Part shown: positions 22,245 to 38,627 of the stretch, one piece after another | How positions within the stretch are numbered: position 1 is the first letter of the stretch | Layout of the letters: each line of letters opens with the position of its first letter | Assembly (NCBI RefSeq): GCF_003344965.1 | Contig: NZ_CP031194.1 | Coordinates: forward strand, 1-64,000 | DNA from: Streptomyces paludis | Lineage (GTDB): Bacteria > Actinomycetota > Actinomycetes > Streptomycetales > Streptomycetaceae | DNA: 64,000 bases | Reading direction: 5' to 3' | Made by a program: the position numbers and the translations under genes | Notes under the pieces: model-generated | Told to the model about the DNA's origin: nothing | What the model saw: the letters and a program-made list of their open reading frames with translations, nothing else | Databases searched by the model: none

Positions 22245-22402
22245 GACCGACCGTCACATGGGGGGGCGGCGTCACGGGGCCGGCACGCACATCTGCGGCG
22301 TTGTCGTCGGTCACGATGGCTCCGCCATCACTCCCTCCTCCGCCTTGCAGCTGCACGCACCAGCCCCCGCTCCTTCACCCACCCCCCATGTGACGGTCGG
22401 TC
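22245..22402 (-). repeat. Palindromic element A with conserved wobble stem
   Basis: The ends are a perfect 21-bp inverted repeat (22245-22265 and 22382-22402, GACCGACCGTCACATGGG plus further G). Inside, on the minus strand, the arms at 22361-22341 (GGTGCGTGC-AGCT-GCAAGGCG) and 22300-22282 (CGCCGC-AGAT-GTGCGTGCC) pair as in elements B and C, with an outer GGGGCTGG/CCGGCCCC stem and an apical GATGGC-TCC-GCCATC hairpin (22315-22329). The right terminal repeat overlaps the 3' end of the 82-residue ORF. No transposase is encoded. Confidence 0.85.
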
Positions 22403-22623
22403 TTAGGGCCCCGGGCCAGATCGAGGGCCTCCTGCGCCTGGCCGAGGCTGAGCACGGCGGCGAATTCGGCGCGCGCGATCGCCAGGACCGTCTCGGCGTC
22501 GGCCGGTGGATGGGGGTGGTCGCGCAGCGCGATGTCCGCGGCGGCGCGGGCGAGCAGATCGTCGTCCGGGGCGGCCCCGGGCTGGGACATGGTGCGCAGG
22601 ACCTGGTGCCAGAGTCCGGCCAT
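22375..22623 (-). CDS. Small hypothetical protein, 3' end inside element A
   Basis: 82 residues starting 4 bases after the TetR gene stop, so co-transcribed with it. The body (MAGLWHQVLRTMSQPG...AETVLAIARAEFAAVLSLGQAQEALDL) is a short helical protein I do not recognise. The last eight or so residues (KTDRHMGGG) and the stop are encoded by the right terminal repeat of palindromic element A, so the original C-terminus may have been replaced when the element arrived. Confidence 0.6.
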   Translation of the reverse strand: MAGLWHQVLRTMSQPGAAPDDDLLARAAADIALRDHPHPPADAETVLAIARAEFAAVLSLGQAQEALDLARGPKTDRHMGGG

Positions 22624-22627
22624 CGCG

Positions 22628-23443
22628 TCAGTTCCCTTCGTCCGGGGGGTGGCCGGCCGCGGTGGTGTCGTCCGCGGCGATACCGAGGGTGGCGAGTGTG
22701 TGGTGGACGAGTTCGTCCGCGAGGAGTTCCCGCGAGAGCGAGGCGCTGTTGCGGGTCCAGTGCGCCACCAGCTCGTTGACGGCGCCGGTGAGGGCGACCA
22801 TCGCGAGGCCGTAGTCGCGCGGCGGGGCCTCGCCGCGGGCCACGGCCCGCTCGGCCTCCGCGGTCAGGAAGCCGCTCCACAGACCGCGCCAGAGCAGCCG
22901 CTGCTCCTCGACCGCGCGGCCGGCACCGACGACCTCGACGAACGCCATCCGGGCCGCCGCGGTCTCGCCGGTGACGGCGGCGGCGTAGGCGCGGCCCAGC
23001 TCGGTGATGCGCTCGCGGGTGCCTGCGGACTCCAGCCGGGGGTCGCTGAGCACGGTCAGGGTGGCTTCCATTCCGGCGCGGGCCACCTCGTTGTGCAGGG
23101 CGATCAGCAGCGCCTCGCGGCCCTCGAACTCCTCGTAGAAGGCGCGGACGGGAACATGTGCCGTGCCGCAGATCCGCTCGACGGAGGTGGCCGGGTAGCC
23201 GCGGGTGGTGAACAGCTCGGTCGCGGTCGCGAGCAGCCGCTCCCGGCGCAGCGCCCGGTGTTCCCGGCCCGCGTGGGCCTGGTCGGCGTCGGTACGGGCG
23301 GGGGCCGGGACGGTGGCGTCCGTACGGAGCCGGTCACCGTCCGGGGCGGCCCGGTCGTCGTGCGTACGGGGCGTGGGGGTACGGGGCGCGGGGGCGTCCG
23401 GCCGTACCGGTGACACGCCCGTCGCCTCTCGGCCATGCTCCAT
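22628..23443 (-). CDS. TetR-family transcriptional regulator
   Basis: 271 residues from ATG 23443, with GGGAGG upstream. A long disordered, Pro/Arg-rich N-terminal tail (about 1-60) precedes the TetR helix-turn-helix (RERLLATATELFTTRGYPATSVERICGTAHVPVRAFYEEFEGREALLIALH in outline, about 68-118). The C-terminal ligand-binding domain is all-helical. The target is unknown; the divergent DUF2252 gene 269 bases away and the downstream 82-residue ORF are the natural candidates. Confidence 0.88.
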   Translation of the reverse strand: MEHGREATGVSPVRPDAPAPRTPTPRTHDDRAAPDGDRLRTDATVPAPARTDADQAHAGREHRALRRERLLATATELFTTRGYPATSVERICGTAHVPVRAFYEEFEGREALLIALHNEVARAGMEATLTVLSDPRLESAGTRERITELGRAYAAAVTGETAAARMAFVEVVGAGRAVEEQRLLWRGLWSGFLTAEAERAVARGEAPPRDYGLAMVALTGAVNELVAHWTRNSASLSRELLADELVHHTLATLGIAADDTTAAGHPPDEGN

Positions 23444-23712
23444 CCGACCTCCCCGAATCGCCCTGTGAACGCACGGTGCCGGCACCGGTGAGAGCGCCTG
23501 TCGAGCATGCCACGCGCGGCCCGCCGACACGCCCTGTTCCACAAATGCACTCCCGATCGCAAGAACACACGAATCGCTGCGCTCCTTCCACAACCGCCGG
23601 CTCCAGGGAAATCACTCGAACGGACGTCACACCGGGCGGCGTCGGGGCGGGGGCGGGACGCTGGCCTGACCGGCCGTTGCCCCGGCCGGCCGATCCGGCG
23701 AGAGGGGTGCGG

Positions 23713-25041
23713 ATGACCACTCCCGCCGACCGGGCCGAGCGCGGCCGGGCCGCCCGCCGGCAGGCCACCCGGTCCTCGCACGGACTGTGGATCCCGGCGG
23801 CCGACCGGCCCGATCCGCTCACCGTGCTGGCGCGGCAGGCGGCCGGCCGGGTCCCGGAGCTGCTGCCGCTGCGCTACCGGCGCATGGCCGCCTCCCCGTT
23901 CGCCTTCCTGCGCGGAGCCGCCGCCGTCATGGCGGGCGATCTGGCCACCCAGCCGCGCACGGGACTGACCGTCCAGCTCTGCGGCAACGCGCATCTGCTG
24001 AACTTCGGTGTGTTCGCCGCGCCCGGGCGCGCCCCGCTCTTCGACATCGACGACTTCGACGAGACGCTCCCGGGCCCCTTCGAGTGGGATGTGAAGCGGC
24101 TCGCCGCGAGTGTCGCGGTGGCCGCCCTCGGCAACGGCCACTCCGAGGCGCACGCGCGGCGCGCCGTCCGCGCGGGCGCCGAGGCGTACCGGACGTCGAT
24201 GCGGCGGCTGGCGCCGCTCGGCGAACTCGACGTCTGGTACGAGCGGATCGACACCGCCGGCATCCTGCCGCGCGTACGGGCGGCACACCGTCCGCGCGCG
24301 GCGGCCGGCCCGGACGGCGAGCCGTTCCGGACCTGTCTGCGGACGCTGGACCGGCTGACCGACGCGCCCGGCGGCCGGCGCCGGATCGCCCCCGATCCGC
24401 CGCTGCTGGAGCCGGTGAGCCGGATCGATCTGGCGATGCTGCGCCGTGTCTTCATCGGGTACCGCAGCACGCTGCCCGAGGAACGGCGGCTGCTCCTGGA
24501 CCGGTTCCGGTTCGTGGACGCGGCCCGGAAGGTGGCGGGGGTGGGCGGGGTCGGCGCCCGCTGCTTCCTGGTGCTGCTGGAGGGGCGGGGCGCCGGTGAT
24601 CCGCTGTTCCTCCAGATCAAGGAGGCGGGGCGGTCCGTGCTCGAACCCCATCTCCAGCAGAGCGCGTACACGCACCAGGGCCACCGGGTGGTGGCGGGTC
24701 AGCGGCTGCTCCAGGCGGCGGGGGACATCTTCCTCGGCTGGGTGACGGCGCCCGAGGGGCGGCAGTTCTACTGGCGGCAGCTGCGGGACCGGAGAGGGGC
24801 CGAGGAGGGGGAGGACATGGCGCCGGCCCTGCTGCACGACTACGCGCGGCTGTGCGGCGCCGCGCTGGCCCGCGCGCACGCCCGCTCCGGCGACCGGATC
24901 GCCATCGCCCACTACCTGGGCGCCTCCGATGTCTTCGACCGCGCCGTCGCCGACTTCGCCCTGCGCTACACGGCCCGGAACGCGGCGGACCACGCGGCCC
25001 TCGTCGCGGCGGTCGCGGCGGGCCGCGTCCCCGTCGCCTGA
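23713..25041 (+). CDS. DUF2252 family protein
   Basis: 442 residues from ATG 23713, with AGAGGGG upstream. DUF2252 features run along the chain: RMAASPFAFLRGAAAVMAGDLA, LCGNAHLLNFGVFAAP, LFDIDDFDETLPGPFEWDVKRLAAS and LFLQIKEAGRSVLEPH, then ARSGDRIAIAHYLGASDVFDRAVADFA. The fold resembles aminoglycoside phosphotransferases/kinases (an N-G-H...D-x-D arrangement), but no reaction has been established for the family. It is cytoplasmic, with no signal or membrane segment, and convergent with the DUF4118 gene. Confidence 0.85.
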   Translation: MTTPADRAERGRAARRQATRSSHGLWIPAADRPDPLTVLARQAAGRVPELLPLRYRRMAASPFAFLRGAAAVMAGDLATQPRTGLTVQLCGNAHLLNFGVFAAPGRAPLFDIDDFDETLPGPFEWDVKRLAASVAVAALGNGHSEAHARRAVRAGAEAYRTSMRRLAPLGELDVWYERIDTAGILPRVRAAHRPRAAAGPDGEPFRTCLRTLDRLTDAPGGRRRIAPDPPLLEPVSRIDLAMLRRVFIGYRSTLPEERRLLLDRFRFVDAARKVAGVGGVGARCFLVLLEGRGAGDPLFLQIKEAGRSVLEPHLQQSAYTHQGHRVVAGQRLLQAAGDIFLGWVTAPEGRQFYWRQLRDRRGAEEGEDMAPALLHDYARLCGAALARAHARSGDRIAIAHYLGASDVFDRAVADFALRYTARNAADHAALVAAVAAGRVPVA

Positions 25042-25070
25042 CGGCCGTTCCCCCGTGCCGGTCCGGCCGG

Positions 25071-25832
25071 TCAGCGGTCGAGCGCCGGGCCCGCCGTGTC
25101 GAGTGCCGCGCCCGTGTCGTCGGCCAGTGTGACGGCGACCTGCCGGGCCTGGCGGGACGGGACGGTGCCGGGGGTGGGCCGGAGCATGAAGCGGCCGAGG
25201 TAGTGGCCGTTGCTCGCGGCGCGCAGTTCGATCTCGCCCGCCGGCCAGCCGAGCCGTTCGAGGTCCCATGTCCGGTGGTCCACGACGACGGTGCCGTCCT
25301 GTTCGAGCCGGGCCGGGTGGCCGAGCAGGGTGCCGTACTCGAAGCGGCAGCCGCGCAGCCGCAGGATCTCGGTGAGATGGCGGCCGACCTGGTCGACGAC
25401 GGTGTCGGGGGCACCGGGCGACCGGGCGAGCCGGGCGGTGTCGTGGATCCTGGCGAGCAGACCGGCGTCGACGACCGTCATGACGCGCAGCCGCCGGGCC
25501 CTGGCCGCCAGTTGCGACACGGCGAGCCCCACCACCAGCAGCAGGACGGCGGTCACGATGTCGTGGGAGCCGGTGATGGTGAGCCGCCCGTACGGCCGGG
25601 TCAGGAAGAGGTCGTACCAGAGGGCCGCCGACAGTCCGGCGAGCGCGCCCGCGAGCCGGCTGCCCAGCGCCGCGACCGCCACGACGGCCACGACCAGGAC
25701 CAGCGCCGCATCGGCGCCGGCCACGCCCGTACGCCACGGCACCAGCAGCAGGGCGACGGCCAGTGTGGCGAGCGGCGCCACCAGGAGTGCGGCGCGATCG
25801 CGTGACGGCAGCCCCCGGAGCGGAAATCCCAT
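25071..25832 (-). CDS. DUF4118 membrane protein (KdpD-like membrane domain)
   Basis: 253 residues. Four hydrophobic segments in the first 110 residues with the linking ALWYDLFLTRPYGRLTI match DUF4118, the transmembrane module of the KdpD potassium sensor kinase. The remaining 140 residues are a soluble GAF-like region. The histidine-kinase core and the KdpD Usp/N-terminal domain are both missing, so this is a stand-alone membrane sensor-like protein of unknown output. No kdp genes are nearby. Confidence 0.8.
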   Translation of the reverse strand: MGFPLRGLPSRDRAALLVAPLATLAVALLLVPWRTGVAGADAALVLVVAVVAVAALGSRLAGALAGLSAALWYDLFLTRPYGRLTITGSHDIVTAVLLLVVGLAVSQLAARARRLRVMTVVDAGLLARIHDTARLARSPGAPDTVVDQVGRHLTEILRLRGCRFEYGTLLGHPARLEQDGTVVVDHRTWDLERLGWPAGEIELRAASNGHYLGRFMLRPTPGTVPSRQARQVAVTLADDTGAALDTAGPALDR

Positions 25833-26044
25833 GGTGCGCCTCGCTTCCTGCCCACGCCCCCGCCTCTCCAGCGTGCGCCCGGGGCGCCCGGCCGGGGCGG
25901 CGGGGCCACGGTCTTGACACCACTCTGCCGCGCGGCGGACGGACCTTGACGCGATGTTGACGGCGGCCGGTCGCGGCGGTGCGGTGACGGCGGTGGCGGC
26001 GGGCGGCGGCGCGTGTGATACGCCTGCGTGTCATGGAGGATCTG

Positions 26045-26569
26045 GTGACAGCGCGGCTCGTACTGCATCCACTGGGCGTTCTGGAGGCCGAGCGGGTGGC
26101 CGCCGGGGAACCGGCGGCCGGGGACCGGTGGGCACCCGGCTACCCCACCGACGGCGACATAGTGGGGGCCGGACGCTATCTGACCACCTGTTCGATCACC
26201 GGCGACCCCCAGCCCTTCGGCCCGTACGAGATCCGCCGGCGCTCGGACGGCCGGGCGATCGGCGGGGTGGGCTTCCACGGCGCCCCGGACGACGATCTGA
26301 CCGTGACGATCGGCTACGGGCTGGTCCCGTCGGCGTACGGCAGGGGCTTCGCCACCGAGTCGCTGCGCCGGCTGCTGCGCTTCGCGCGCGAGCGCGGCGT
26401 CCTCCGCGTCCGGGGCGACACCGACCACGGCAACACCGCGTCGCAGCGGGTGATGACGGCGGTGGGCATGCGGCTGGTCGCGGAGGACGAGCGGCTCAAG
26501 TACTACAGCGTCGTCTGGGACGACGACGGCGCTCCGGACGGCGCCGGAACTATCCCCGGCGCTGGATAG
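26045..26569 (+). CDS. GNAT-family N-acetyltransferase
   Basis: 174 residues if GTG 26045 is used (VTARLVLHPLG): GGAGG lies 4 bases before it, whereas the ATG 12 bases upstream has no ribosome site and itself contains that GGAGG. Acetyl-CoA-binding motif A is GYGLVPSAYGRGFATESLRRLL, preceded by a beta strand LTVTIGY; the C-terminal NTASQRVMTAVGMRLVAEDE is typical of the RimJ/RimL-like subgroup. The substrate is not predictable. The 3' end overlaps a small opposing ORF. Confidence 0.85.
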   Translation: MTARLVLHPLGVLEAERVAAGEPAAGDRWAPGYPTDGDIVGAGRYLTTCSITGDPQPFGPYEIRRRSDGRAIGGVGFHGAPDDDLTVTIGYGLVPSAYGRGFATESLRRLLRFARERGVLRVRGDTDHGNTASQRVMTAVGMRLVAEDERLKYYSVVWDDDGAPDGAGTIPGAG

Positions 26570-26768
26570 GCGTACGGCGGCGGGCCGGGGGACGGTCGAA
26601 GAGGCTCTCCATGGTGGGTTCCTCGTCTCCCTCGCCGTCCTGGAGCGGCGGCAGTTCCACGGTGTAGCGGGGCTCCAGGAAGATGTCGTGGTGCTGCGGA
26701 CGCGCCGGGGGCGCGGCCGTCGTGCTCGTTGCCCGCGGCGGATCCTGGCGGGACGGTGAAGAAGGCAT
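26550..26768 (-). CDS. Possible small hypothetical protein
   Basis: 72 residues, Pro/Arg-rich at both ends with an acidic centre (YTVELPPLQDGEGDEEPTMES). G/C predominates at third positions, as in neighbouring genes, but there is no ribosome site before the ATG at 26768 and the last 20 bases overlap the acetyltransferase gene tail to tail. It resembles short disordered streptomycete proteins; it may equally be a chance frame. Confidence 0.35.
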   Translation of the reverse strand: MPSSPSRQDPPRATSTTAAPPARPQHHDIFLEPRYTVELPPLQDGEGDEEPTMESLFDRPPARRRTPIQRRG

Positions 26769-26970
26769 GCACAACCGTTCGGTGAGTCGAGCGGTCGCGC
26801 GGCCCAATGCCGATCGACCCGCTGGGAAGGTGTCTACCTCATCCTTCCCCGTACCGCACAACCACCGGTCCGCGCCGCGGCGCGGGGCCGCCGGCCCGCC
26901 GGATCCGCCACACGGCTCCATCGGGGCGGCCGGCGGGTCCGTTCCCGCTCCGGGCGGGAAGGGTGAGGGC

Positions 26971-28215
26971 GTGTCCGACACCCGGAAGTCACTGAGAGCG
27001 CCGGCCGCGGAGCTGCTGCGCCGCGGCCGGGGACCGGGCGTCGCGCAGGCGCTGCGGTCGACCGCCGCCGCGACCCTTGCCTATGTGGCCGCCCGCCATC
27101 TGAGCAGCGAGGCCGCGCCGCTCACGGCTCCCCTGACGGCGCTGCTGGTGGTTCAGGTGACGCTCTACTCCACTCTGACGACCGGGATCCGCCGGGTGAA
27201 CGCGGTGGTCGCCGGGGTGCTGGTGGCCAGTGGTTTCAGTGTGCTGGTGGGGCTGACCTGGTGGAGTCTGGGGCTGATCATCCTGGCGTCGCTGGTGGTC
27301 GGACGGCTGGTCCGGGCGGGCGAGTTCGTGCCCGAGGTCGCGATCAGCGCCATGCTGGTCCTCGGGGTGACCCGGGTGGCCTCGACAGCGTGGGACCGGG
27401 TGCTGGAAACACTGATCGGCGCGGTGGTGGGGCTGCTGTTCAACTTCCTGTTCGCGCCGCCCGTCTGGGTCCGGACGGCGGGCGAGTCGATCGAGGATCT
27501 CGCCCGGCGGATACGGCAGCTGCTGCTGCGGATCGGGGAGGGGCTGACCGCGCCGGTCCCGGTCGCGCGCGCCGCGCGGCGGCTGCACGAGGCCCGCCGG
27601 CTCGATGACGCGGTCGGCGAGGTGGACGCGGCGCTGCGGCAGGCGGAGGACAGTGTCCGGCTCAATCCGCGGGTGCGGGAAGGGGTGTTGCACCGTGTGG
27701 TGCTGCGGACGGGGCTCGACACACTGGAGATCTGCACGGTGGTGCTGCGGGTGCTGGCCAGGACGCTCACCGATCTGGCGAAGGAACGGACCGACGAGCC
27801 GCTGTTCACCCCCGAGGTGGGGGCGGCGCTGGAGGATCTGCTCTCCCGGGTCGCGGACGCGGTGGTGAGCTTCGCCGTCCTGGTGACGACGGAGGCGCGT
27901 ACGAGCGCCGAGACGGCGGAGGCGCGGCTCGCGGGCGATCTGGAGGCGGCGCGCACGAGCCGGGAGCGGCTGGCGCCCCTGCTGCTGGCGGGGGTCCGGC
28001 GCCATCCCCGGCAGTGGCAGCTGCACGGGGCGGTGCTGACCGAGATCGACCGGATCCTCGACGAACTGGCCATGGAGCACCGGTCGAAGCGGCTGATGGA
28101 GGAGCTGGACCGCGCCGCGCGGGAACAGCGTGAGCGTTGGCCGCGGCCGGCGGCGGTAAGGCGACGGTTCCGGCGGCGGTCCCGGGGACGGCTCTGGGGA
28201 CGGTTCCGCGGATAG
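26971..28215 (+). CDS. FUSC-family membrane protein (aromatic acid exporter-like)
   Basis: 414 residues from GTG 26971 (VSDTRKSLRAPAAELL), preceded by GGGTGAGGG. Four to five membrane segments lie between residues 25 and 165 (including APLTAPLTALLVVQVTLYSTL and LIGAVVGLLFNFLFAPPVWV), followed by a long charged helical cytoplasmic part (170-400) and an Arg-rich C-terminus. This is the half-size FUSC/ArAE layout of fusaric-acid and aromatic-acid efflux proteins. No partner membrane-fusion protein is nearby, as expected in a Gram-positive. Confidence 0.82.
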   Translation: MSDTRKSLRAPAAELLRRGRGPGVAQALRSTAAATLAYVAARHLSSEAAPLTAPLTALLVVQVTLYSTLTTGIRRVNAVVAGVLVASGFSVLVGLTWWSLGLIILASLVVGRLVRAGEFVPEVAISAMLVLGVTRVASTAWDRVLETLIGAVVGLLFNFLFAPPVWVRTAGESIEDLARRIRQLLLRIGEGLTAPVPVARAARRLHEARRLDDAVGEVDAALRQAEDSVRLNPRVREGVLHRVVLRTGLDTLEICTVVLRVLARTLTDLAKERTDEPLFTPEVGAALEDLLSRVADAVVSFAVLVTTEARTSAETAEARLAGDLEAARTSRERLAPLLLAGVRRHPRQWQLHGAVLTEIDRILDELAMEHRSKRLMEELDRAAREQRERWPRPAAVRRRFRRRSRGRLWGRFRG

Positions 28216-28636
28216 GCACGGTGATCTTTGTGACGGCGCCGATAGGGGGCCGGCAATTGCGTCGCGCCCGGTGGGAAAAGCCCGCTTTCATCGACAACAG
28301 GACATCGGTGGGCGATTATTGACGGAATTTTTACCCCTGATGTGTGTAGGCACGGTGCGGATAGGCGGCGGAGCACGGGCCCGCACCGGCGGAAGGGGCC
28401 CGCCGAGGGGTGTCAACTGGGACGATCGCGCGGACGGAGCCCGGCCCGGGGTGATCATGACGCGGCTTTCGCCCCTCTTCGCACGGTGCGGACGGGGGCC
28501 CGGGGAGCCCTCCCGGGCTCAGGAGGCGGGCGAAAAGGGAGAGTTGGGTGGGGCGGTTGAAGGGGCTCCGCGCCGATGGCGGTACTGTGCGCGCGCGCCG
28601 TCAATCCTGGGCGGCGCGGTTATCCCGGAGGAATTT
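28216..28636 (+). other. 421-base intergenic region ahead of the LAxTG protein gene
   Basis: No gene is supported here. Two hairpins are visible: CGGTGCGG (28353-28360) with CCGCACCG (28381-28388), and GAGCCC-TCCC-GGGCTC (28505-28520). A relatively AT-rich stretch at about 28286-28340 (including GATTATTGACGGAATTTTTA) may hold the promoter, giving an unusually long leader of about 300 bases for the downstream surface-protein gene. I could not match the leader to a known riboswitch. Confidence 0.4.
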
Positions 28637-29332
28637 GTGACTCTATTCAACAGATCGTGGCAGCGCTCCGGCGCGCTCATAACGGTCGTGGCGGCGAGCG
28701 CGCTCGGCGTCGGTCTCACGGCGGCCCCGGCTTTCGCGCACACTCCCACCTGGAATGTGACCTGCGACCAGGTCAGCCTGAATCTGACGGCCTACGGAAA
28801 CAGTGACAAGAACACCGTCACCGTCACCGTGGACGGCAAGGATCTGCTGCCGACCGAGAACTTCAGGAACAACTTCAAGAAGACGCTCGACCTTCCCGAT
28901 CACAGCAGCGAGCTGACGGTCCGCCTCGTCGTGGACGCGGCCGACGGTGACCGGTTCAACAAGGACGAGACCAAGACCGCGCCCGTCTGCCCCGGCAAGG
29001 AGGAGCCGAGCCCCTCCCCGTCGGAGACCCAGCCCACCGAGGAGCCGACCGACGAGCCCAGCGCGACTCCCAGCGAGCCGGCGCCCTCGGAGGAGCCCCC
29101 CACCGAGGAGCCCACGACCGAGACCCCCGAGTCGTCGGCCCCGCCGGCCGACGCGAGCACCCCGCCCGTGGACGAGCCGTCGCCCGTCCCCAGCCCCAAC
29201 GGTGGCGGTGACCTGGCCGAGACCGGTTCGTCCAGCGCCACGCCGCTGATCGCCGGCGCCGCCGGTGTCGTCCTCGTCGCCGGTGCGGGCATCATGTGGG
29301 CCGCGCGCAAGCGTCGCTCCGCCCAGGGCTGA
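28637..29332 (+). CDS. Cell-wall-anchored surface protein (LAxTG sortase substrate)
   Basis: 231 residues from GTG 28637, five bases after GGAGG. The signal peptide is residues 1-34 (ending AAPAFA). A small beta-rich domain (about 35-120) is followed by a Pro/Ser/Glu/Thr-rich wall-spanning stalk (about 120-190) of PSEEPPTEEP-type repeats. The C-terminal sorting signal is LAETG, a hydrophobic segment and the tail ARKRRSAQG. LAxTG is the class E sortase motif of Streptomyces, the type that anchors long chaplins. No sortase gene lies nearby. The ligand or role is unknown. Confidence 0.88.
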   Translation: MTLFNRSWQRSGALITVVAASALGVGLTAAPAFAHTPTWNVTCDQVSLNLTAYGNSDKNTVTVTVDGKDLLPTENFRNNFKKTLDLPDHSSELTVRLVVDAADGDRFNKDETKTAPVCPGKEEPSPSPSETQPTEEPTDEPSATPSEPAPSEEPPTEEPTTETPESSAPPADASTPPVDEPSPVPSPNGGGDLAETGSSSATPLIAGAAGVVLVAGAGIMWAARKRRSAQG

Positions 29333-29439
29333 CCGACCGCACCACGCGGTATCCGTACGACGCACCACCCGCCGCCACGACGGGACCGCCGCACCCCACG
29401 CGGTGACGCGTCCGGTCCGTGGGCGGCTCTTCGAACAGT

Positions 29440-29474: not shown

Positions 29475-29576
29475 CCCGTACCGGCCCGTACGGCGTGGCC
29501 CGGCGGGATGCGGGCCGCCCCGGGGGCGCGGACAATGAGGGGGTCCGCAAGCCGCCGAGCAGCGCTGGGGGCGTCC

Positions 29577-31387: not shown

Positions 31388-32034
31388 GACGGCTCCTTGT
31401 CCGGGGCGGGGCGCACCTCCGCGGGTGCGGGTGCGGTGTGTTCGGTGTGTTCGGGCTTCACGGTGGGGTGGAGGGCCACGACGATCCGGTGATCCCGGCC
31501 ATCCTCGGCCTCCGCCGCCTGGTATTTGGCGATCAGCGCGCCGACGCCACGGGTCAGTTCCTCGACGAACGCGGCCCGGTCGGCCGCGGAGGCGAAGCGC
31601 ACCTCGCCGTCGAGCGCGTACGTCGCCACCCGTTGGCGCGCCTTCGCCGCGCCGGTGATCAGGGACCCCGTGTCCCGTACCAGCCGGGCCGCGACCGCGA
31701 GCAGCCAGCGCGCGGAGAGCTGGTCGCGGAAGCGGGCCGGGTCCGGCTGCACGGCGGCGAGGGCGAGCGGCGAGATGACGTAGGAGGCCGCGGTGGCCCG
31801 CATCATCCGCTCGGTGACATTGCCCCTGCGGCGCTCCCCGGCCAGCTCGACCAGGCCGTGCCGCTCCAGCGCCTTGAGGTGGTAGTTCACCTTCTGTCGC
31901 GGCAGTCCCACCCGGCCGGCCAGCATCGTCGCGGAAGCCGGCCCGCCGGCCAGCTCGGCCAGCAGCCGGGCCCGCACGGGGTCCAGCGAGGCGGCCGCCG
32001 CCGCCGCGTCCTCGATCACGGTCACATCCAGCAT
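31384..32034 (-). CDS. ArsR-like winged-helix transcriptional regulator
   Basis: 216 residues. The winged helix is at about 12-80: LDPVRARLLAELAGGPASATMLAGRVGLPRQKVNYHLKALERHGLVELAGERRRGNVTERMM in outline. The remaining helical region resembles other helix-turn-helix-domain proteins that accompany SRPBCC proteins; it has no metal-binding cysteines. Residues 185-216 are a disordered tail. It is first gene of a two-gene operon and probably autoregulatory, with a candidate operator 18 bases upstream. Confidence 0.87.
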   Translation of the reverse strand: MLDVTVIEDAAAAAASLDPVRARLLAELAGGPASATMLAGRVGLPRQKVNYHLKALERHGLVELAGERRRGNVTERMMRATAASYVISPLALAAVQPDPARFRDQLSARWLLAVAARLVRDTGSLITGAAKARQRVATYALDGEVRFASAADRAAFVEELTRGVGALIAKYQAAEAEDGRDHRIVVALHPTVKPEHTEHTAPAPAEVRPAPDKEPS

Positions 32035-32363
32035 GGGTCCACCCTCTCACCGACAATTATTTTTGTCCAGACGATTCCATCTGTCGGCGGCTGGGCCGGC
32101 GCTGGAGCGCCCGGCCCGGTGCGGAGCGCCCGGCCCGCACCCCCGCCCCCGGGCGCGTTCACTCGAATGGCGGATAGCCGCGTGGGGGCGGCAACCGCCG
32201 GGAGCGCCGGTGCGGCGGGCGTCGTGGCGCGGTCGCGGCGGTACGGGCGGGCTTCCCCCGGTTGCCGCCGCCACCGTCCGGATGCGCGATGGAATCGTGC
32301 GCGCCTGACCGTGAGGGGCCTGATCCCACAGACGCGCTTCCCCCACGCGAGGAGTGATCGCTG
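32035..32363. other. 329-base divergent intergenic region
   Basis: It separates the HTH/SRPBCC operon from the PRC-barrel gene. Near the left end is an AT-rich block containing the inverted repeat GACAA-N6-TTGTC (32052-32067). The rest is GC-rich with no supported gene; GAGGAG shortly before 32364 is the ribosome site of the PRC-barrel gene. Confidence 0.5.
32052..32067. promoter_or_regulatory. Candidate operator GACAA-N6-TTGTC
   Basis: A perfect 5-6-5 inverted repeat in the only AT-rich stretch ahead of the ArsR-like gene, ending 18 bases before its start codon. Its position fits an autoregulatory site; that is inference. Confidence 0.4.
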
Positions 32364-33239
32364 ATGTCAGCCGAAGGCGTGTTCGACAACCCCAGCAGTC
32401 TGAACGGCAGGAGCATGTACGACCAGGACGGCGACAAGATCGGCACCGTCGGTCAGGTCTACGTCGGCGACCGCAGTGGCCGTCCGGAGTGGGTCACCGT
32501 GAAGACGGGCCTGTTCGGCATGAAGGAGAGCCTCGTGCCGCTCACCGGCGCCCGCCGCGCCGGCGAGGACATCCACGTCCCGTACGCCAAGGAGACCGTC
32601 AAGGAGGCACCGCGCCTGGACGCGGACGAGCATCTCGACCCGGGCCAGGAGAAGCAGCTCTACCGGCACTACGGGCTGACGGCCGCCGGCGGCATCGGTA
32701 CGGCCGCCGCGGGCACCGCCGGGACCCGTACGGGCATGGCCGCCGACACCGGCATGTCCACCGGACGCGCCGCCGCGGCGACGCCCACGGGCCGGCCGAT
32801 GGCCGGGGTCCGCGGCTCCATGCAGGAGGGTAAGGACCTGCACACGGACGAACTCATCAGGTCCGAGGAGCAGCTGCACGTCACGGCGGAGGAGCGCGAG
32901 GTCGGCCACGCCCGGCTGCGCAAGGTCGTCGTGACCGAGAACGTGACCACGACGGTCCCGCTCAGCCACGAGGAGGTGCGCGTCGTCCACGAGGCGATCA
33001 CGCCCGAGGAGCGGGGCCGGCTCCGGGGCTCGCGGATCGGTGAGGCGCAGACCGAGGTGACGCTCCACGCCGATCAGCCGATCATCAGCAAGGAGTCCAT
33101 CCCCGTCGAGCGCGTCCGCATGGAGACCGAGCGGGTGACCGAGCAGCGCGAGGTCTCCGCCGAGGTCCGCAAGGAGCAGATCGAGTACGACACCGACCAG
33201 GAGGACAAGGGCAACCGCGGCAGGCGCGGCGGCCGGTAA
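32364..33239 (+). CDS. PRC-barrel and DUF2382 domain protein
   Basis: 291 residues. The PRC-barrel occupies about 10-85 (MYDQDGDKIGTVGQVYVGDRSGRPEWVTVKTGLFG...SLVPL...VPYAKETVKEAP). A Gly/Ala/Thr-rich linker (about 110-150) leads to DUF2382 (about 160-275: EEQLHVTAEEREVGHARLRK...IPVERVRMETERVTEQREVSAEVRKEQIEYD). The pair is typical of abundant stress-associated cytoplasmic proteins in actinobacteria; no activity is established. A long terminator hairpin follows. Confidence 0.9.
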   Translation: MSAEGVFDNPSSLNGRSMYDQDGDKIGTVGQVYVGDRSGRPEWVTVKTGLFGMKESLVPLTGARRAGEDIHVPYAKETVKEAPRLDADEHLDPGQEKQLYRHYGLTAAGGIGTAAAGTAGTRTGMAADTGMSTGRAAAATPTGRPMAGVRGSMQEGKDLHTDELIRSEEQLHVTAEEREVGHARLRKVVVTENVTTTVPLSHEEVRVVHEAITPEERGRLRGSRIGEAQTEVTLHADQPIISKESIPVERVRMETERVTEQREVSAEVRKEQIEYDTDQEDKGNRGRRGGR

Positions 33240-33256
33240 CCTCCCCGGACCGGGCC

Positions 33257-33306
33257 ACACGCCCCCGCCCCCGCACACCGCGTTGTGTGCGGGGGCGGGG
33301 GCGTGT
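33257..33306. terminator. Bidirectional terminator with a perfect 21-bp stem
   Basis: 33257-33277 (ACACGCCCCCG...) is the exact reverse complement of 33286-33306, with an 8-base loop. It stands between the converging PRC-barrel and COG4315 genes and can serve both. Confidence 0.85.
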
Positions 33307-33329
33307 TCCGGCGGGCGGCGACGGGTCGG

Positions 33330-33962
33330 TCAGTAGCTCGCGCTGGGGCTCGGTGTGACACCGGCGCTCATGCCGGGGCCGGCCGTGTGGCTCGGGGTGT
33401 GGGTGGGGCTGGGCGGCGGGGTGGTGACCGCCTTGCCCTGGGCGTCGACGACGTACCACTTGCCGCCGAACTCGTTCTTGGCCTGGCCGTGGGCCTCGCC
33501 CGGGTGGTGGTCGCCCTGGTACGTGTAGAGGGGGTGGCCGTCGTAGGTGACCTGCTTGACCCCGTTGGCGCGGGTGATCGTACCGAGCAGCTTGGCCCGG
33601 ACACCGCCGGTGCCGGCCTCCGGCTTGTTCTTGACGAGCAGCGGGCGCCAGGTCTTCTCGCAGGATCCCGTGCAGTTGGACTTGTCCCGCTTGTCCGCCT
33701 CGAAGAGGTAGAGCGTGTGGTCCCGGTGGTTGACCAGGACGTCCCCGTACGCCCCGACGGCCTTCGCCGACACCTTCCCGTGGTCGGCGGCGGGCGACGA
33801 CATGGCCGTCGACGGGAGCATCGACGCGGACGCGGACGCCGCCGCGTAGTCGGCGGGCACCTCGGCCCGCGTCCCGCTCCCGCTCTCCGAGCAGCCGGCG
33901 ACACCGGCGGCGCACAGTGCCGCCGCGGCCAGCGCGGCGGCGGTCCTGGTGGTGATCCTCAT
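33330..33962 (-). CDS. COG4315-type lipoprotein (secreted repeat of unknown function)
   Basis: 210 residues. Signal peptide with lipobox AAGVAGC puts the lipidated cysteine near 24. Two copies of the short secreted repeat are visible, GDVLVNHRDHTLYLFEADKRDKSNCTG and VKQVTYDGHPLYTYQGDHHPGEAHGQ in outline, each with the LYLF/LYTY and acidic-His pattern; between them are CTGSCEKTWRPLLV cysteines. Membrane-attached and extracellular, with a Pro/Ser/Thr tail. The family is often linked to redox or envelope stress but has no proven function. Confidence 0.85.
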   Translation of the reverse strand: MRITTRTAAALAAAALCAAGVAGCSESGSGTRAEVPADYAAASASASMLPSTAMSSPAADHGKVSAKAVGAYGDVLVNHRDHTLYLFEADKRDKSNCTGSCEKTWRPLLVKNKPEAGTGGVRAKLLGTITRANGVKQVTYDGHPLYTYQGDHHPGEAHGQAKNEFGGKWYVVDAQGKAVTTPPPSPTHTPSHTAGPGMSAGVTPSPSASY

Positions 33963-34125
33963 TGATGACTCCTCAGATCAGAGCCGCCCCACGGGCAGCA
34001 CGGCGCCCGCGCGATCGCGGCCACAGCACTCACTAGAGGACAGCCGCCACCGGTGGGCCACCGGGCAGGGCCGTCCGATGGAAGCGGCCGGGCCCGGGGG
34101 CTCCGTACGGGTGAGGTACCGTGGT

Positions 34126-34240
34126 GACCAGCGAAGGGGAGTAGCCCCGCGAACCGGTCGTCGACACACTGGAGCCCCCGGGCTCCCGGTGGCCGGGCCC
34201 GTCCCACCGGACGGGCGGGCGAGACCTTCGGTCAGGCATT
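34126..34240 (+). ncRNA. yybP-ykoY manganese riboswitch
   Basis: The 5' signature GAAGG-GGAGTAG (34133-34144) and the 3' signature GGCGAGACC-TTC (34218-34229) are those of the yybP-ykoY class. P1 is present: GACC (34126-34129) with GGTC (34230-34233) and GAAGG (34133-34137) with CCTTC (34225-34229). The element ends about 120 bases before a TMEM165/GDT1-family gene, a known partner of this riboswitch. It senses Mn2+ and is normally an ON switch for manganese export or homeostasis genes. Confidence 0.85.
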
Positions 34241-34353
34241 TGACGTGCCCGCGTCCCGCGGGCGCGCCGTCGTGCCGGGCCGAGCGGTCCTCCTTGCTCC
34301 TGACGGTGCTTCGCGAAGATCCGGGTCCGGCCCTGAAGAGAGAGCCACCCGTA

Positions 34354-34947
34354 ATGAGTCTCGATCCCCTGGCGATCCTCACCGCCTTCGGGCTGATCTT
34401 CCTGGCGGAGCTGCCGGACAAGACGATGTTCGCGTCCCTCGCCATGGGGACGCGGATGCGCCCGCTGTACGTCTGGTTCGGCACCTCGACCGCGTTCCTC
34501 GTCCATGTGGCCATCGCCATCGGCGCGGGCAGCCTCATCGGGCTGCTGCCCGGCTGGTCCGTCAAGCTCGTCTCCGCGCTGCTCTTCGCCTTCGGGGCGT
34601 TCATGCTGCTGCGCGGCGGCGGGGGCGGCGAGGAGGACGGGGAGGACGCCGCCGGGAGCCGGACCGTGACCGGGTTCTGGCCGGTCTACTCGACCGCGTT
34701 CATGGCCGTGTTCATCAGCGAGTGGGGCGATCTCACCCAGATCACCACCGCCAATCTCGCCGCGAGCAACGGCACCTGGTCCACCGCCATCGGCTCGGCG
34801 GCGGCGCTGATGTCCGTCTCGGCGCTGGCACTGCTCGCGGGCCGGTTCATCGCGACCCGTGTCCCGCTCAAGACCGTCCAGCGTATCGGCGGGCTGTGCA
34901 TGCTCGGGCTGGCCGTCTGGTCGGCCGTGGAGATCTTCGTGGGCTGA
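34354..34947 (+). CDS. TMEM165/GDT1 (UPF0016) family Mn2+ transporter
   Basis: 197 residues from ATG 34354, with GAAGAGAGAG about 10 bases upstream. Six membrane segments in two inverted halves, each with the family motif: E19-L-P-D-K-T (with P where the family has G) and EWGDLTQIT in the second half. A Gly/Glu-rich cytoplasmic loop (about 90-108) separates them. Bacterial members (MneA-like) export Mn2+; related eukaryotic GDT1/TMEM165 move Ca2+/Mn2+ in exchange for protons. The Mn2+ riboswitch upstream supports a manganese role. Confidence 0.9.
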   Translation: MSLDPLAILTAFGLIFLAELPDKTMFASLAMGTRMRPLYVWFGTSTAFLVHVAIAIGAGSLIGLLPGWSVKLVSALLFAFGAFMLLRGGGGGEEDGEDAAGSRTVTGFWPVYSTAFMAVFISEWGDLTQITTANLAASNGTWSTAIGSAAALMSVSALALLAGRFIATRVPLKTVQRIGGLCMLGLAVWSAVEIFVG

Positions 34948-34962
34948 GCCGGGCGTGCGGCA

Positions 34963-35006
34963 GCGCGTGGCCCCCGTACCGGTGCGCCGGTACGGGGGCC
35001 ACGCGC
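34963..35006. terminator. Bidirectional terminator with a perfect 20-bp stem
   Basis: 34963-34982 is the exact reverse complement of 34987-35006, with the tetraloop TGCG. It is placed between the converging Mn transporter and siderophore-binding-protein genes. Confidence 0.85.
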
Positions 35007-35035
35007 GGATCGCCCGCTCTCCGGCGGCGGCCGGA

Positions 35036-36109
35036 TCAGCTCTTCGGGGTCAGGTGCTTCTTGAGTACGGCGAGGACGTCACGGGCGGCCGTCGGCCCGG
35101 TGTTGAGGTAGAAGACATCGTCGTCGACCGGGATCGCGGTCCCGCCCGCGACGGCGGAGAGCGTGGGCCACAGGGGCGCGTCGGTGAGCGCCGTGACCTT
35201 GGTGTCGGCGCCTTGGACCCCGTAGAAGATCCAGTCGGCGTCGGCCCGGTCCAGCTGCTCGTTGCTGATGTCCTCGGAGGTGTCGTCGAACCGCTGGCTC
35301 TCGGGCCGGCCGAGCCCGGCGTCCTCGGCGATGCTGCCGGTGAACGACGGCACACCGAAGACGCGCAGCCGGTCGGCGTTGAGCCGCAGGAAGGAGACGG
35401 TGACGGGCTTGCCGGCCTTCGCGCCCCACTGGGCGGCGTCGGTGTGGAAGTCGTCGAGGATCCGCTGGGCCCGCTCGGTCTTCCCGAGGGCGTCGGCGAC
35501 GAGCAGGAAGTCCTGCTTCCAGTAGAGCCCGGTGCCCTGGGTGGCGACGGTGGGCGCGACGGCGCTGAGCGCGGTGTAGAGCTTCTTGGCGTCCTTGCCC
35601 GCGATGTTCATCAGGATGAGGTCGGGCTTGATGTTGGCGACGGCCTCGATGTCCGGCGCGACCCGGGAGCCCACGTCCGCGACCTTCTCCAGCGCGGCCG
35701 CGTCCTTCGGGTAGTCGTCCTTCAGATACCGGGGCACGAGGTCGGCGCCGTCGCCGCGGGTCGAGCCGGCCGGGACCGTGCCGAGGGTGAGCAGCGCGTC
35801 GGCCTGGCCGGTGGAGATCACCACGACCTTCGCCGGCTCGGCCTTGATGACCGTCTTGCCCTCGAAGTGGCCGACCGTACGCGGGAATTCGCCGTCCGGT
35901 CTGCCGCTGCCCATGCCCTTGGGCACGGTACGGGGCGCGGTGTGGGTCACCGGCGAGGCGGCGCCGTCGGAGGAGGTCGCCGAGGCCGTCGAGTCGGCCG
36001 CGGTGCCGGTCGCGCCGGTCGAACAGCCGGTGAGCAGCAGGGCGCCGACGACGGCGAGGCCGCCGGCGAGCCGGGGGAAGGGGAGGTCACTGAAGCGGTA
36101 CACGATCAC
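35036..36109 (-). CDS. Iron-siderophore ABC transporter substrate-binding lipoprotein
   Basis: 357 residues from GTG 36109 (a second GTG two codons on is possible); AGGAGA is 11 bases upstream inside the iron box. Lipobox ALLLTGC gives a lipidated cysteine at about 29. The class III periplasmic-binding fold follows: strand PAKVVVISTGQADALLTLG, IEAVANIKPDLILMN, then a long connecting helix and the C-terminal lobe (FVxRL-type VSFLRLNADRLRVFGVPSF). It presents ferric siderophore to the FecCD permeases encoded divergently 50 bases away. Confidence 0.9.
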   Translation of the reverse strand: MIVYRFSDLPFPRLAGGLAVVGALLLTGCSTGATGTAADSTASATSSDGAASPVTHTAPRTVPKGMGSGRPDGEFPRTVGHFEGKTVIKAEPAKVVVISTGQADALLTLGTVPAGSTRGDGADLVPRYLKDDYPKDAAALEKVADVGSRVAPDIEAVANIKPDLILMNIAGKDAKKLYTALSAVAPTVATQGTGLYWKQDFLLVADALGKTERAQRILDDFHTDAAQWGAKAGKPVTVSFLRLNADRLRVFGVPSFTGSIAEDAGLGRPESQRFDDTSEDISNEQLDRADADWIFYGVQGADTKVTALTDAPLWPTLSAVAGGTAIPVDDDVFYLNTGPTAARDVLAVLKKHLTPKS

Positions 36110-36128
36110 TTAGCTTAGGCTCTCCTAA
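36110..36128. promoter_or_regulatory. Iron box (DmdR/IdeR-type operator)
   Basis: TTAGCTTAGGCTCTCCTAA closely matches the 19-bp DtxR-family iron box (TTAGGTTAGGCTAACCTAA-like). It fills the gap between the siderophore-binding protein and permease genes, directly beside the former's start codon, and would let DmdR1/IdeR-Fe2+ shut off both directions when iron is plentiful. Confidence 0.85.
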
Positions 36129-36158
36129 GTGTTGAGGAGCAGCTATGCCGGTCATGGG

Positions 36159-37199
36159 ATGGATCACACAACCGGAGGAGAGAGTTCCAGAAAGCGGATC
36201 GCCGGGGGCGGGGTCCGCGGCGCCGCGCTGCTCGGCGCCTTCGCCCTGGTGTGCCTGCTGGTTCTGGTGAGTCTGGGGGTCGGCGCGCGGAGCGTTCCGC
36301 TGGACACGGTGTGGCGGGTGCTGTGGCACGACGACGGGAGCGCGGAGGCCATCATCGTGTGGCGGCTGCGGATGCCCCGGACCCTCCTCGCGGTCGCGAT
36401 CGGCGCCGCGCTGGCCCTGGCCGGTGTGGTGATGCAGGCCATCACCCGCAATCCGCTGGCCGAGCCGGGGATCGTCGGGGTCAACGCCGGAGCCTCCTTC
36501 GCGGTGGTCCTCGCGATCGCCGCGTTCCATGTCACCAGCGTGTCGGGTTACGTCTGGTTCGCCTTCGCGGGGGCCGTGCTGGCCGCGCTGCTCGTCCACT
36601 CGCTGACCGCCGGCGCCACCCGGGGCAGTCACCGCACCCGGCTCGTGCTGGCGGGGGCGGCGCTGTCGGCGAGTCTGGGGGCGGGCACCGGCATCGTCAC
36701 CATGTTCGACACCACCGCCTTCGACTCGTACCGCTTCTGGGTGGTGGGGTCGCTGGAGAACCGCGGCTCCGAGGCCCTCACGGCGACCCTGCCCTTCCTT
36801 GTCGTCGGCGCGGTGCTCGCGCTGGCGCTCGGTCCGGCGCTCAACGCGCTGGCGCTGGGGGACGAGACGGGCGCGGCGCTCGGGCTGCGGGTGCCGTGGG
36901 TGCGCGCGGCCGGGTTTCTCGCCATCATGCTGCTGTGCGGGGCCTCGACGGCCGCCGCCGGGCCGATCGCCTTCGTGGGGCTGGTCGTTCCGCATGTCCT
37001 GCGGCTGCTCCTCGGGCCCGATCTGCGGCGGCTGCTGGTCTTCTCGGTGCCCGGCGGGGCGCTGCTGGTGCTGCTCAGCGATATCGCGGGCCGGGTGATC
37101 GCCCGGCCGGGCGAGATGGAGGTCGGCATCGTCACGGCGTTCGTCGGGGCGCCCGTACTGCTCTGGCTGGTCGCCGGACGACGGGAGGCCACGGCATGA
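36159..37199 (+). CDS. FecCD-family siderophore permease 1
   Basis: 346 residues from ATG 36159; GTG 36129 is in frame but abuts the iron box, so it is less likely. About ten membrane helices. Family signatures: WRLRMPRTLLAVAIGAALALAGVVMQAITRNPLAEPGIVGVNAGA near 60-105 (in outline), and the ATPase-coupling segment GLRVPWVRAAGFLAIMLLCGASTAAAGPIAFVGLVVPHVLR near 250-290. It forms the membrane channel with the next gene, which it overlaps by ATGA. Confidence 0.92.
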   Translation: MDHTTGGESSRKRIAGGGVRGAALLGAFALVCLLVLVSLGVGARSVPLDTVWRVLWHDDGSAEAIIVWRLRMPRTLLAVAIGAALALAGVVMQAITRNPLAEPGIVGVNAGASFAVVLAIAAFHVTSVSGYVWFAFAGAVLAALLVHSLTAGATRGSHRTRLVLAGAALSASLGAGTGIVTMFDTTAFDSYRFWVVGSLENRGSEALTATLPFLVVGAVLALALGPALNALALGDETGAALGLRVPWVRAAGFLAIMLLCGASTAAAGPIAFVGLVVPHVLRLLLGPDLRRLLVFSVPGGALLVLLSDIAGRVIARPGEMEVGIVTAFVGAPVLLWLVAGRREATA

Positions 37200-38248
37200 G
37201 CGCGGCGCATCGCGGGGCGCGGGTGGCACGGCTGCCCGGCGGGGTCACCCTGCGCTACTCGGGCCGGAGCGCCGCGGTGACGGGGCTGCTGCTGCTGGGC
37301 TGCGCGGCGGTGTGGACGCTCACCCTGTTCACCGGTACGTACCGGATCGACGCGGCGCACATCGCCGAGGTGCTGTTCGGCGGGGGCGGCTCCGCGACCG
37401 ACCGGTTCATCGTCCTCGGCCAGCGGCTGCCGCGGGTCTGCGGCGCGCTGCTCGTGGGCGCGGCCCTCGGGCTGTCCGGGGCGCTGTTCCAGAGCCTGTC
37501 GCGCAATCCGCTGGGCAGCCCCGACGTCATCGGCTTCACCACCGGCTCCACCAGCGGCGCGCTCGTCGTCATCCTGGCGGGCGGCTCCGCGGCCGGGGTG
37601 GGTGTCGGTACGGGAGCGGTGGTCGGCGGGCTGATCACGGCGGTGGTGGTGTACGGGGTCACGGCGTCGCGCGGGGTCACCGGCAACCGGCTGGTCCTCG
37701 CGGGCATCGCGGTCGGCGCCATGCTCTCCTCCGTCAACGACTATCTGCTCACCCGGGCCGATCTGGAGTCCGCCGAGAGCGCCAAGGCATGGACCTTCGG
37801 CAGCCTCAACGCCGTTTCCTGGACGCAGATCGCCCCGCTGGCGCTGGCGCTGCCGCCGCTCGTCGCCGCGACGCTGGCGGTGGGCCGGCCGCTGCGGCTG
37901 ATGGAGATGGGCGACGACACGGCGGGTGCGCTGGGCGTGCGCGTGGGGCGCGTACGGGCGACGGCGCTGCTGCTCGGTGTCGCGCTGGCCGGGACGGCCA
38001 TCGCCGTCGCGGGCCCCATCGGCTTCCTCGCCCTGGCGGCCCCCCAGCTCGCCCGCAGACTCACCCGCTCCCCCGGCGCCCCGGTCGGCTCGGCGATGCT
38101 CACGGGGGCGCTGCTGCTCGCGACGGCCGATCTGCTGGCGCAGCGCCTCCTCGCCCCGTTCCAGATCCCGGTCGGGCTGGTGACGGGCGCGCTGGGCGGG
38201 CTGTATCTGCTGTGGCTGCTGTCGCGGGAGCGGCGGACGACGGGGTAG
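37196..38248 (+). CDS. FecCD-family siderophore permease 2
   Basis: 350 residues; the start overlaps the previous stop (ATGA), so the two are translationally coupled. Signatures: VLGQRLPRVCGALLVGAALGLSGALFQSLSRNPLGSPDVIGFTTGS (in outline) and GVRVGRVRATALLLGVALAGTAIAVAGPIGFLALAAPQLARRL. The heteromeric permease needs a FecE/FepC-type ATPase, but none follows: the TAG stop is itself the first three bases of palindromic element B. Confidence 0.92.
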   Translation: MSAAHRGARVARLPGGVTLRYSGRSAAVTGLLLLGCAAVWTLTLFTGTYRIDAAHIAEVLFGGGGSATDRFIVLGQRLPRVCGALLVGAALGLSGALFQSLSRNPLGSPDVIGFTTGSTSGALVVILAGGSAAGVGVGTGAVVGGLITAVVVYGVTASRGVTGNRLVLAGIAVGAMLSSVNDYLLTRADLESAESAKAWTFGSLNAVSWTQIAPLALALPPLVAATLAVGRPLRLMEMGDDTAGALGVRVGRVRATALLLGVALAGTAIAVAGPIGFLALAAPQLARRLTRSPGAPVGSAMLTGALLLATADLLAQRLLAPFQIPVGLVTGALGGLYLLWLLSRERRTTG

Positions 38249-38450
38249 GGCCTGTATGGGGTTGTGATCTGGATCAGGGAGCGGGGCGTGGTGCGTGCGA
38301 TCGCAAGGCGCCGGGAGGCCCTCGGATGGGGTGTCCCCTGCTCGAACGGAGTTGAGAGCTCGGGGAGGGAGCTACTAGGGCATTTCGGCAACGCGGCGAG
38401 CGTGCGTGCCACGCCCCGCGAGCCCAGAGCGCAACCCCATACAGGCCCTA
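38246..38450 (+). repeat. Palindromic element B with conserved wobble stem
   Basis: Perfect 19-bp terminal inverted repeats TAGGGCCTGTATGGGGTTG (38246-38264; complement at 38432-38450). Core arms: 38290-38310 (GGTGCGTGC-GATC-GCAAGGCG) and 38392-38410 (CGCGGC-GAGC-GTGCGTGCC), extended by an outer GCGGGGCGTGG/CCACGCCCCGC stem (38281-38291 with 38409-38419). The apical part (38311-38391) is longer than in A and C and has no simple hairpin. The first three bases are the stop codon of the permease gene. Confidence 0.88.
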
Positions 38451-38627
38451 GGGCCTGTCTGACAAATAGCGCCGTCCGCCCGTAGGGCGGGGCTCGCGGC
38501 GTCTGGTGCGTGCGATCGCAAGGCGGAGGGTCGCCCCAGTACTGGACGTACTGGGGTGATCCCGACAACGCCGCGAGCGTGCGTGCCAGGCGTCGCGAGC
38601 CAGGCGGGATTTGTCAGCCAGGCCCTA
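38449..38627 (+). repeat. Palindromic element C, abutting element B
   Basis: Ends TAGGGCCTGTCTGACAAAT (38449-38467) and the complement of TAGGGCCTGGCTGACAAAT (38609-38627), 18 of 19 matching. Core arms 38505-38525 and 38569-38587 pair like those of B; the outer helix runs without a break from 38491-38504 to 38588-38601 using G-T wobbles; the apical hairpin CCCCAGTAC-TGGAC-GTACTGGGG (38534-38556) is perfect. A small CCGCCC-GTA-GGGCGG hairpin lies at 38476-38490. It shares TA with the end of B. Confidence 0.88.

Follow-up and report, generated by a model that had tools for sequence, protein, structure and literature searches.

Palindromic elements of Streptomyces paludis that share a hairpin apex and carry IS5-type ends

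Three palindromes, called elements A, B and C, lie in the first 64,000 nucleotides of the Streptomyces paludis contig NZ_CP031194.1 (this whole stretch is referred to as the window) and resemble four described systems, each in part. With the miniature inverted-repeat transposable elements (MITEs) of the IS5 family of insertion sequences (ISs) they have in common their shortness, IS5-like terminal repeats in some subfamilies, CTAG or TNA duplications and their presence or absence between strains; the target duplication of IS5 is PyTAPu, mostly CTAG, according to the available part of PMC5493358. Like REPs and REPINs, they are small non-autonomous hairpins with compensatory changes (PMC3116915, accessible sections). 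The attC sites of integrons are also imperfect palindromes that fold as one strand with unpaired features and mostly occupy the leading-strand template; in attC it is the recombinogenic strand that is placed in this way, which limits folding and cassette loss (PMC8946536, text available in part). Finally, the ends of IS200/IS605 elements likewise form strand-specific hairpins with a replication-oriented placement, favouring the lagging-strand template (excerpts of PMC5371812).

The palindromes were noticed in a sequence-only reading of the window, and its description of a common core, of the N4 blocks (GATC/GAGC in B and C, AGCT/AGAT in A) and of a one-base difference in B (CGCGGC, where A and C carry CGCCGC) is confirmed. 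Element A occupies 22245-22402 on the minus strand, as had been proposed, while B and C, both on the plus strand, had to be trimmed to 38249-38447 and 38452-38624 by their terminal repeats. The three belong to a large family of mobile DNA elements without genes, in which the conserved feature is a hairpin apex, GC-AAG-GCG...CAACGC-N-GC, and not the wobble-rich stem. Overall, the reading stood as regards mobility, covariation and the folding of one strand, and failed as regards the constancy of that stem. Our confidence is good that the elements belong to the MITEs and have IS5-type ends; it is lower for the idea that their apex works as folded single-stranded DNA.

A fixed apex on a covarying stem

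The genome that contains the window, 8.45 Mb in size, has 21 exact matches to the 20-mer core pattern and none to its reversed form. Across the genus the pattern is present in 170 of 295 genomes, and the reversed control in seven among the matches listed. Counting with up to two mismatches gave 48 matches against 81 in the reversed control, and only the 21 exact ones were kept. A covariance model, R1, was built from 30 cores (set A1, drawn from 35 non-redundant ones after removal of five whose spacing was longer or irregular). With 150 of 22266 first-look candidates scored in the own genome, it recognizes at least 29 copies there at E 1e-5 or better. Within the class, 43 of 148 genomes have matches, nine of these being from the same genus, and 20 of 81 genera are represented; in five genomes of this search the best 26 candidates were scored, and copy counts there are to be read as "at least".

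In the 30 cores, which are biased towards the genus, RNAalifold finds 25 pairs, 12 of them changed on both sides. A second alignment, A2, with 47 more diverse cores, has both-side changes in 22 of the 25 pairs, and 96.4% of its cells are paired compared with 74.9% in shuffles and at most 54.2% in slid versions, although an alignment fitted to the model leans towards structure. Compensatory change is real and far stronger than three copies could reveal, and the arms covary in this alignment. Among 107 elements the N4 combination is GATC/GAGC in 53 and AGCT/AGAT in 23, others being rarer. These counts leave out 65 core matches that lack the exact 3′ arm; some are family members with an altered 3′ arm, others chance hits in bacteria that are unrelated (L106, L117, L137, L142 and L159, for example).

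The apex, GCAAGGCGgaGGag...CGaCAACGC.GC, is almost invariant in the 47 cores of A2. By eye it consists of GC-AAG-GCG, an internal loop, a variable stem-loop, a CAA bulge and CGC-N-GC, and the internal loop, in which GGAG faces CGAC, could form tandem G.A pairs. The wobble stem with GTGCGTGC, on the other hand, had been taken for a constant part and proved constant within the genus only, in part because it had been searched for. Three copies of the own genome (L018, L027 and L028) have different stems, still with wobbles, and in an element of another genus (L299) the stem is almost perfectly Watson-Crick while the apex is retained. One could regard GTGCGTGC as a direct-repeat protein-binding site in double-stranded DNA, the hairpin being incidental, and the 8-mer does stand in the same direction in both arms of most genus-level cores, which were found via that same 8-mer. 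Its replacement by other paired sequence in the three own-genome copies and in other genera makes this idea hardly credible.

The pairing is strand-specific. In the inner stem of A2 there are 197 G.T or T.G cells against 5 A.C or C.A cells, and G.T exceeds A.C by 97 to 3 among the 26 cores L289-L314, of which 22 come from other genera. When G.T and A.C were counted by arm position in a strict arm alignment over the 107 elements, the ratio was 9:4 at positions 0-5, 368:1 at 5-14, where the searched motif dominates, 111:2 at 14-24, 75:19 at 24-34, 27:14 at 34-50 and 68:62 beyond 50, where the alignment may overrun the element. Positions 14-24 differ from those beyond 50 with a Fisher p of 2e-18 (4e-13 in a non-redundant set of 48), and the inner-stem excess of G.T also appeared under an earlier, more lenient arm-extension scoring. 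In all 107 elements G outnumbers C on the apex strand, which was the better folder in 103 of the 103 tested, its advantage averaging 10 kcal/mol under DNA parameters. For the elements of the window, the folding of this strand compared with shuffled sequence gave z values of −13.2 (C), −9.0 (B) and −5.5 (A), while the opposite strand folds less well (−10.0, −7.5 and +0.4, respectively). Since G.T greatly exceeds A.C in the inner stem and the two are nearly balanced beyond position 50, the inner stem appears to be selected as a one-strand fold, and the strand-specific pairing makes selection on a folded single strand, as the sequence-only reading supposed, a good inference. The outer repeats would be selected for folding much less or not at all, as expected if a transposase reads them as duplex.

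It is conceivable that complementarity is kept without any selection for folding, through template switching or arm-to-arm conversion, the core then reflecting common descent. The arms indeed pair over their full length to the terminal repeats and many copies are near-identical. However, such correction would clear mismatches on both strands, which is difficult to reconcile with a G.T to A.C ratio of 197:5; the purine-purine mismatch of N4 is retained in the two commonest types, and the apex, which no partner arm can correct, is the most conserved part. We consider this explanation quite improbable and already disfavoured.

Ends, target duplications and movement

The terminal repeats differ between subfamilies. 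Terminal repeats together with a target duplication were found by script in 63 of the 107 elements, the duplication being CTAG in 38, TA in 9, TAA in 8, TTA in 5, TGA in 2 and TTAA in 1. Because the script demanded TA or TNA and preferred longer duplications, the share of TA is built in, while the predominance of CTAG is not. With a median of 170 bp the elements have the shortness of MITEs and, judged by this length, no room for a gene. A recent insertion is seen at one of three sites examined: the Streptomyces atratus plasmid NZ_CP109382 contains a 158-bp A-type element with TTA on each side, and NZ_CP108277 has at the same site a single TTA and no element, a clean empty site that verifies the duplication; NZ_CP109328 also lacks the element. 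With this empty site, the IS5-type ends and the target duplications, the elements are mobile and non-autonomous, as had been put forward for A, B and C.

The own genome has seven similar IS5-family ISs (L211-L217) and one more (L219). The ends of B agree with those of L219 at 21 of 27 positions and the ends of another element, L050, at 22 of 27; an own-genome element of the T1b type agrees with the ends of L211-L217 at 17 of 25, elements from other species with the same IS at 22 of 25, and an element from another genome (L300) with the ends of a further own-genome IS, L255, at 17 of 25. The transposase of L211 scores above the cut-off of NF033580 (IS5) and that of L219 slightly below; PF13340 is found in L211 and L219, and PF01609 in L211, L219 and L255. 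Terminal repeats that match an IS5-family IS of the same genome, a hallmark by which MITEs are recognized, are thus found for the B and T1b types, while the ends of C match at only 15 of 25 positions, which is weak. A helper transposase had been anticipated, and IS5-family (DDE) ISs do match the ends in some subfamilies, with no counterpart for A among the loci fetched and a weak one for C.

Placement and a possible role of the folded strand

A simple codon-usage gene caller placed one of 100 elements with flanks inside a gene. In five others, same-strand genes are called within 10 nt of each end, and these elements may interrupt a gene; in 41 of the 100 at least one end lies this close to a call. 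Where genes lie within 400 nt on both sides (87 elements), these are convergent in 24 cases, divergent in 13 and in tandem in 50; 47 of the upstream genes read in sense (p 0.52). The direction of flanking genes shows no effect and was ruled out as the source of an orientation bias. Relative to dnaA such a bias is pronounced: 87 of 117 placements in 15 genomes are replication-oriented (p 1.3e-7), the apex strand being the plus strand to the left of dnaA and the minus strand to the right, and it is therefore mostly the leading-strand template. The 15 genomes, out of 36, are those with listed placements on one chromosome-size contig with dnaA, the drafts G148, G182, G203, G273 and G286 and 16 further genomes being excluded. 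Four tandem copies in G172 were counted once, the own genome (G000) entered with its 29 model hits, and G049 contributed 8 of 12 among the matches listed. Without the own genome, 67 of 88 placements follow the bias, and adding the dnaA contigs of G273 (4 of 6) and G148 brings it to 91 of 125 (p 3e-7). Six single-contig genomes of other genera gave 29 of 44 (p 0.05), on the assumption that coordinate 1 is dnaA.

On balance we lean towards the explanation that the elements are IS5-mobilised MITEs whose conserved apex works as folded single-stranded DNA. IS5-family DDE transposases would move A, B and C in trans, recognizing the outer terminal inverted repeats as double-stranded DNA and duplicating CTAG or TNA on insertion. 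The whole element would be a hairpin of two layers: an outer one of terminal repeats that varies by subfamily, each presumably matched to a different IS5-type transposase, and an inner one, a covarying stem of ~30 bp with the fixed apex (GC-AAG-GCG, a purine-rich internal loop, the CAA bulge and CGC-N-GC), that would be maintained by selection on one strand. The apex could act once its strand is single-stranded, for example at the replication fork or during transfer, when it might fold and be recognized by a factor aiding movement or survival of the element. Copies may persist mainly with the apex strand as leading template because a strong hairpin on the lagging-strand template would be excised or cut; the bias could stem from such losses or from the way the transposase inserts.

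The second possibility amounts to a clamp-linked insertion preference of the IS5 transposase, unrelated to hairpin folding, and clamp-linked biases have been reported for several IS families (PMC5371812 in its available part, with reference to Gomez et al. 2014). No obvious bias is seen among the IS copies L211-L217, which at seven are too few for a test, and the terminal repeats are nearly symmetric, so that a transposase should have little to distinguish left from right. We think it unlikely that the orientation bias arises in this way.

The main rival to a role as folded DNA is a structured RNA: the apex strand would be transcribed and its inner part would function as RNA, by binding a protein, as a small RNA or by shielding the element from read-through, the terminal repeats merely spreading it. 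Strand-specific pairing with many G.U-type pairs and nearly no A.C is what an RNA would show, as are conserved unpaired nucleotides around a covarying stem and the GC-rich apex kept inside AT-rich arms in two viral contigs (L325 and L328, see below); moreover, MITE transcripts form stable stem-loops and one MITE yields sRNAs, as stated in the accessible part of a review (PMC10969869). Yet with the upstream gene in sense in 47 of 87 cases there is no sign of selected read-through transcription, and transcription of the apex strand would oppose replication head-on in 87 of the 117 placements. No Rfam family was found at gathering score either, be it in the window or in eight loci, where a single tRNA lay away from the element; sub-threshold matches of miRNA families (mir-1397 and others) to the long hairpin over the core were rejected. 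The orientation bias together with the indifference to gene direction favours DNA over RNA, and we regard a functional RNA as possible rather than probable.

Several points weigh against folded DNA carried by IS5-type enzymes. G.T makes up ~18% of the paired cells, and a high G.T frequency is more typical of RNA. We know of no protein that binds the apex. The own genome taken alone has a weak bias (20 of 29, p 0.06), and in the draft G148 both placements on the dnaA contig run counter to it (0 of 2). Of the other sites examined for insertion, one (L315) is occupied in all three S. atratus plasmids and hence uninformative, and the third (L316) has no clean empty site. No helper with the A-type repeat GACCGACCG was present among the loci fetched, and the IS L255 has an internal stop. 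Finally, IS transposases that contact the sliding clamp can themselves yield an orientation bias, according to the same available part of PMC5371812.

If the folded-DNA explanation is right, the folded strand and not the sequence would be under selection, and the family, whose copies record replication direction, would offer, besides integrons and IS200/IS605, a natural experiment on how single strands fold at replication forks. A constant apex with exchangeable recognition ends would be an unusual way to outlive helpers. An unnamed element would then be present in over half of the genus genomes sampled and in many genomes from other genera of the class, and with the covariance model intergenic palindromes that lack an explanation could be assigned to a named family.

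Occurrence in the window and beyond, and relation to known systems

A broader model, R2, whose 47 source sequences include A, B and C, recognizes A (E 1e-17), B (7e-12) and C (4e-19) in the window and finds no other match there below E 0.29. Element A, 158 bp long and of the TNA type, is delimited by terminal repeats GACCGACCGTCACATGG... and flanked, in the sense of the apex strand, by TAA on the left and CAA, one base off, on the right. Its core (22282-22361, minus) has GTGCGTGC in both arms, and its apex (22295-22348, minus), GCAAGGCG ... CAACGCCGC, is the part conserved across the class. Minus-strand genes flank it on both sides, and the frame of the small gene before it (22403-22640, minus) enters A by a few codons and ends at an internal TGA.

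Element B (199 bp) has terminal repeats GGCCTGTATGGGGTTGTGATC and the flanks GTAG and CTAG. Its apex (38303-38397, plus) is enlarged by a GC-rich mini-hairpin of ~40 nt within the apical loop (ATGGGG..CCCC..GCTCGA..), a nested small repeat that occurs in 8 of the 107 elements (besides B, in L022, L070, L078, L093, L103, L116 and L186). A plus-strand open reading frame with a product that we read as permease-like directly precedes B; its TAG stop (38246-38248) overlaps the flanking duplication of B, and the following gene call lies on the plus strand as well. The CTAG at 38448-38451, an IS5-type target duplication, is common to B and C. Element C (173 bp), with terminal repeats GGCCTGTCTGACAAAT and CTAG at both flanks, has its core at 38505-38587 and its apex at 38518-38574 (both plus), within an R2 match at 38492-38600. 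Since every insertion recreates CTAG, chains of elements can form. A third IS5-type end, CTAGGGCCTGGCTGATCAATGACG, stands immediately after C at 38625-38650; no partner for it was found within 3 kb downstream, and it is probably a remnant. Elsewhere, four core copies lie in tandem at a spacing of exactly 139 bases (G172:C1:2568220-2568656), and in a T1-type element of the own genome (L010, G000:2141133-2141380) one arm is by eye interrupted by an unrelated insertion of ~50-60 bases. Apart from the palindromes, the window has repeats of a 126-base period at 6708-7671, which would be a 42-residue repeat if coding, and the heptamer AGGCCGC in ~9 tandem copies at 3084-3146.

Among 296 genomes of the phylum, R2 has matches at E 1e-4 in 21, of which 13 lie outside the class. 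In a scan for the exact core, the named carriers among the matches listed (at least 120) are mostly Streptomyces, with also Nocardioides, Actinacidiphila and a metagenome-assembled genome of the Micrococcales; a few core matches in other phyla, among the matches listed, are without the second arm. Two viral contigs, L325 (40% G+C) and L328 (33% G+C), have the same apex on wholly different, AT-rich pairing arms, which in L328 are 52 nt long and 87% complementary, without being outstanding by plain arm counting. R2 gives E values of 9e-8 for L325, 3e-9 for L328, 1e-5 for L326 and 4e-6 for L446 in a search of 83 loci, and of 2e-6 for L495 in a search of 63. At E <0.01 it matched L325, L326 and L328 in a scan of 26 viral stretches, and L429, L430, L446, L466 and L495 in a scan of 120; all of these five except L466 have 14-16 of 16 arm pairs, against at most 10 in the remaining stretches, and carry a variant apex, GCAAGGCG...GCAACGCNGC, with pairing arms. 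In blastn against plasmids the L328 element had five weak hits, all in Streptomyces and to its middle part only, while the elements of L325, L326 and L430 had no match there, and a search of phage records gave none. A hit in a Comamonas plasmid (H107/L500), a relative of L446 by blastn, was set aside as the model gives no match.

On the basis of five contigs the apex looks older and wider than the class. It could even be an ancient cross-phylum hairpin module, a parasite of parasites that swaps its ends to ride the host's IS5-type transposase and uses the folded strand at the fork for copying or protection. A conserved host or transposition factor would then recognize the folded strand, and L325, L328, L326, L446 and L495 would belong to one system; this further step seems doubtful to us.

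No description of such a family came up in the literature searched, most subscription papers being uncovered, so that an earlier one is possible. Papers whose full texts matched core strings of at least 12 have unrelated titles, and neither Streptomyces nor Actinobacter- occurs in the available text of a 2024 review of prokaryotic MITEs. Together with the lack of an Rfam match at gathering score, this is in line with the earlier statement that no named family with this core was known. A constant apex together with one better-folding strand suggests a function of the folded strand, of which the papers searched gave no description.

The family differs from each of the systems that it resembles. 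REPINs are conserved at their two REP ends, while here it is the apex that is conserved, with IS5-type duplications at ends that are variable and IS5-like; genes for REP-associated tyrosine transposases (RAYTs) were not searched for. In contrast to attC sites, the copies are dispersed and not in cassette arrays, and they have IS5-type ends; attC boxes were not recognised in them, no search aimed at attC or an integrase having been made. IS200/IS605 elements are not known to produce a target duplication, whereas the family here has clear ones and mostly occupies the leading-strand template. Compared with the IS5-family MITEs, to which the ends point, its members share a strand-specific core and are not internal deletions of one IS: a single core is combined with many terminal repeats, and the sequence from repeat to apex covaries.

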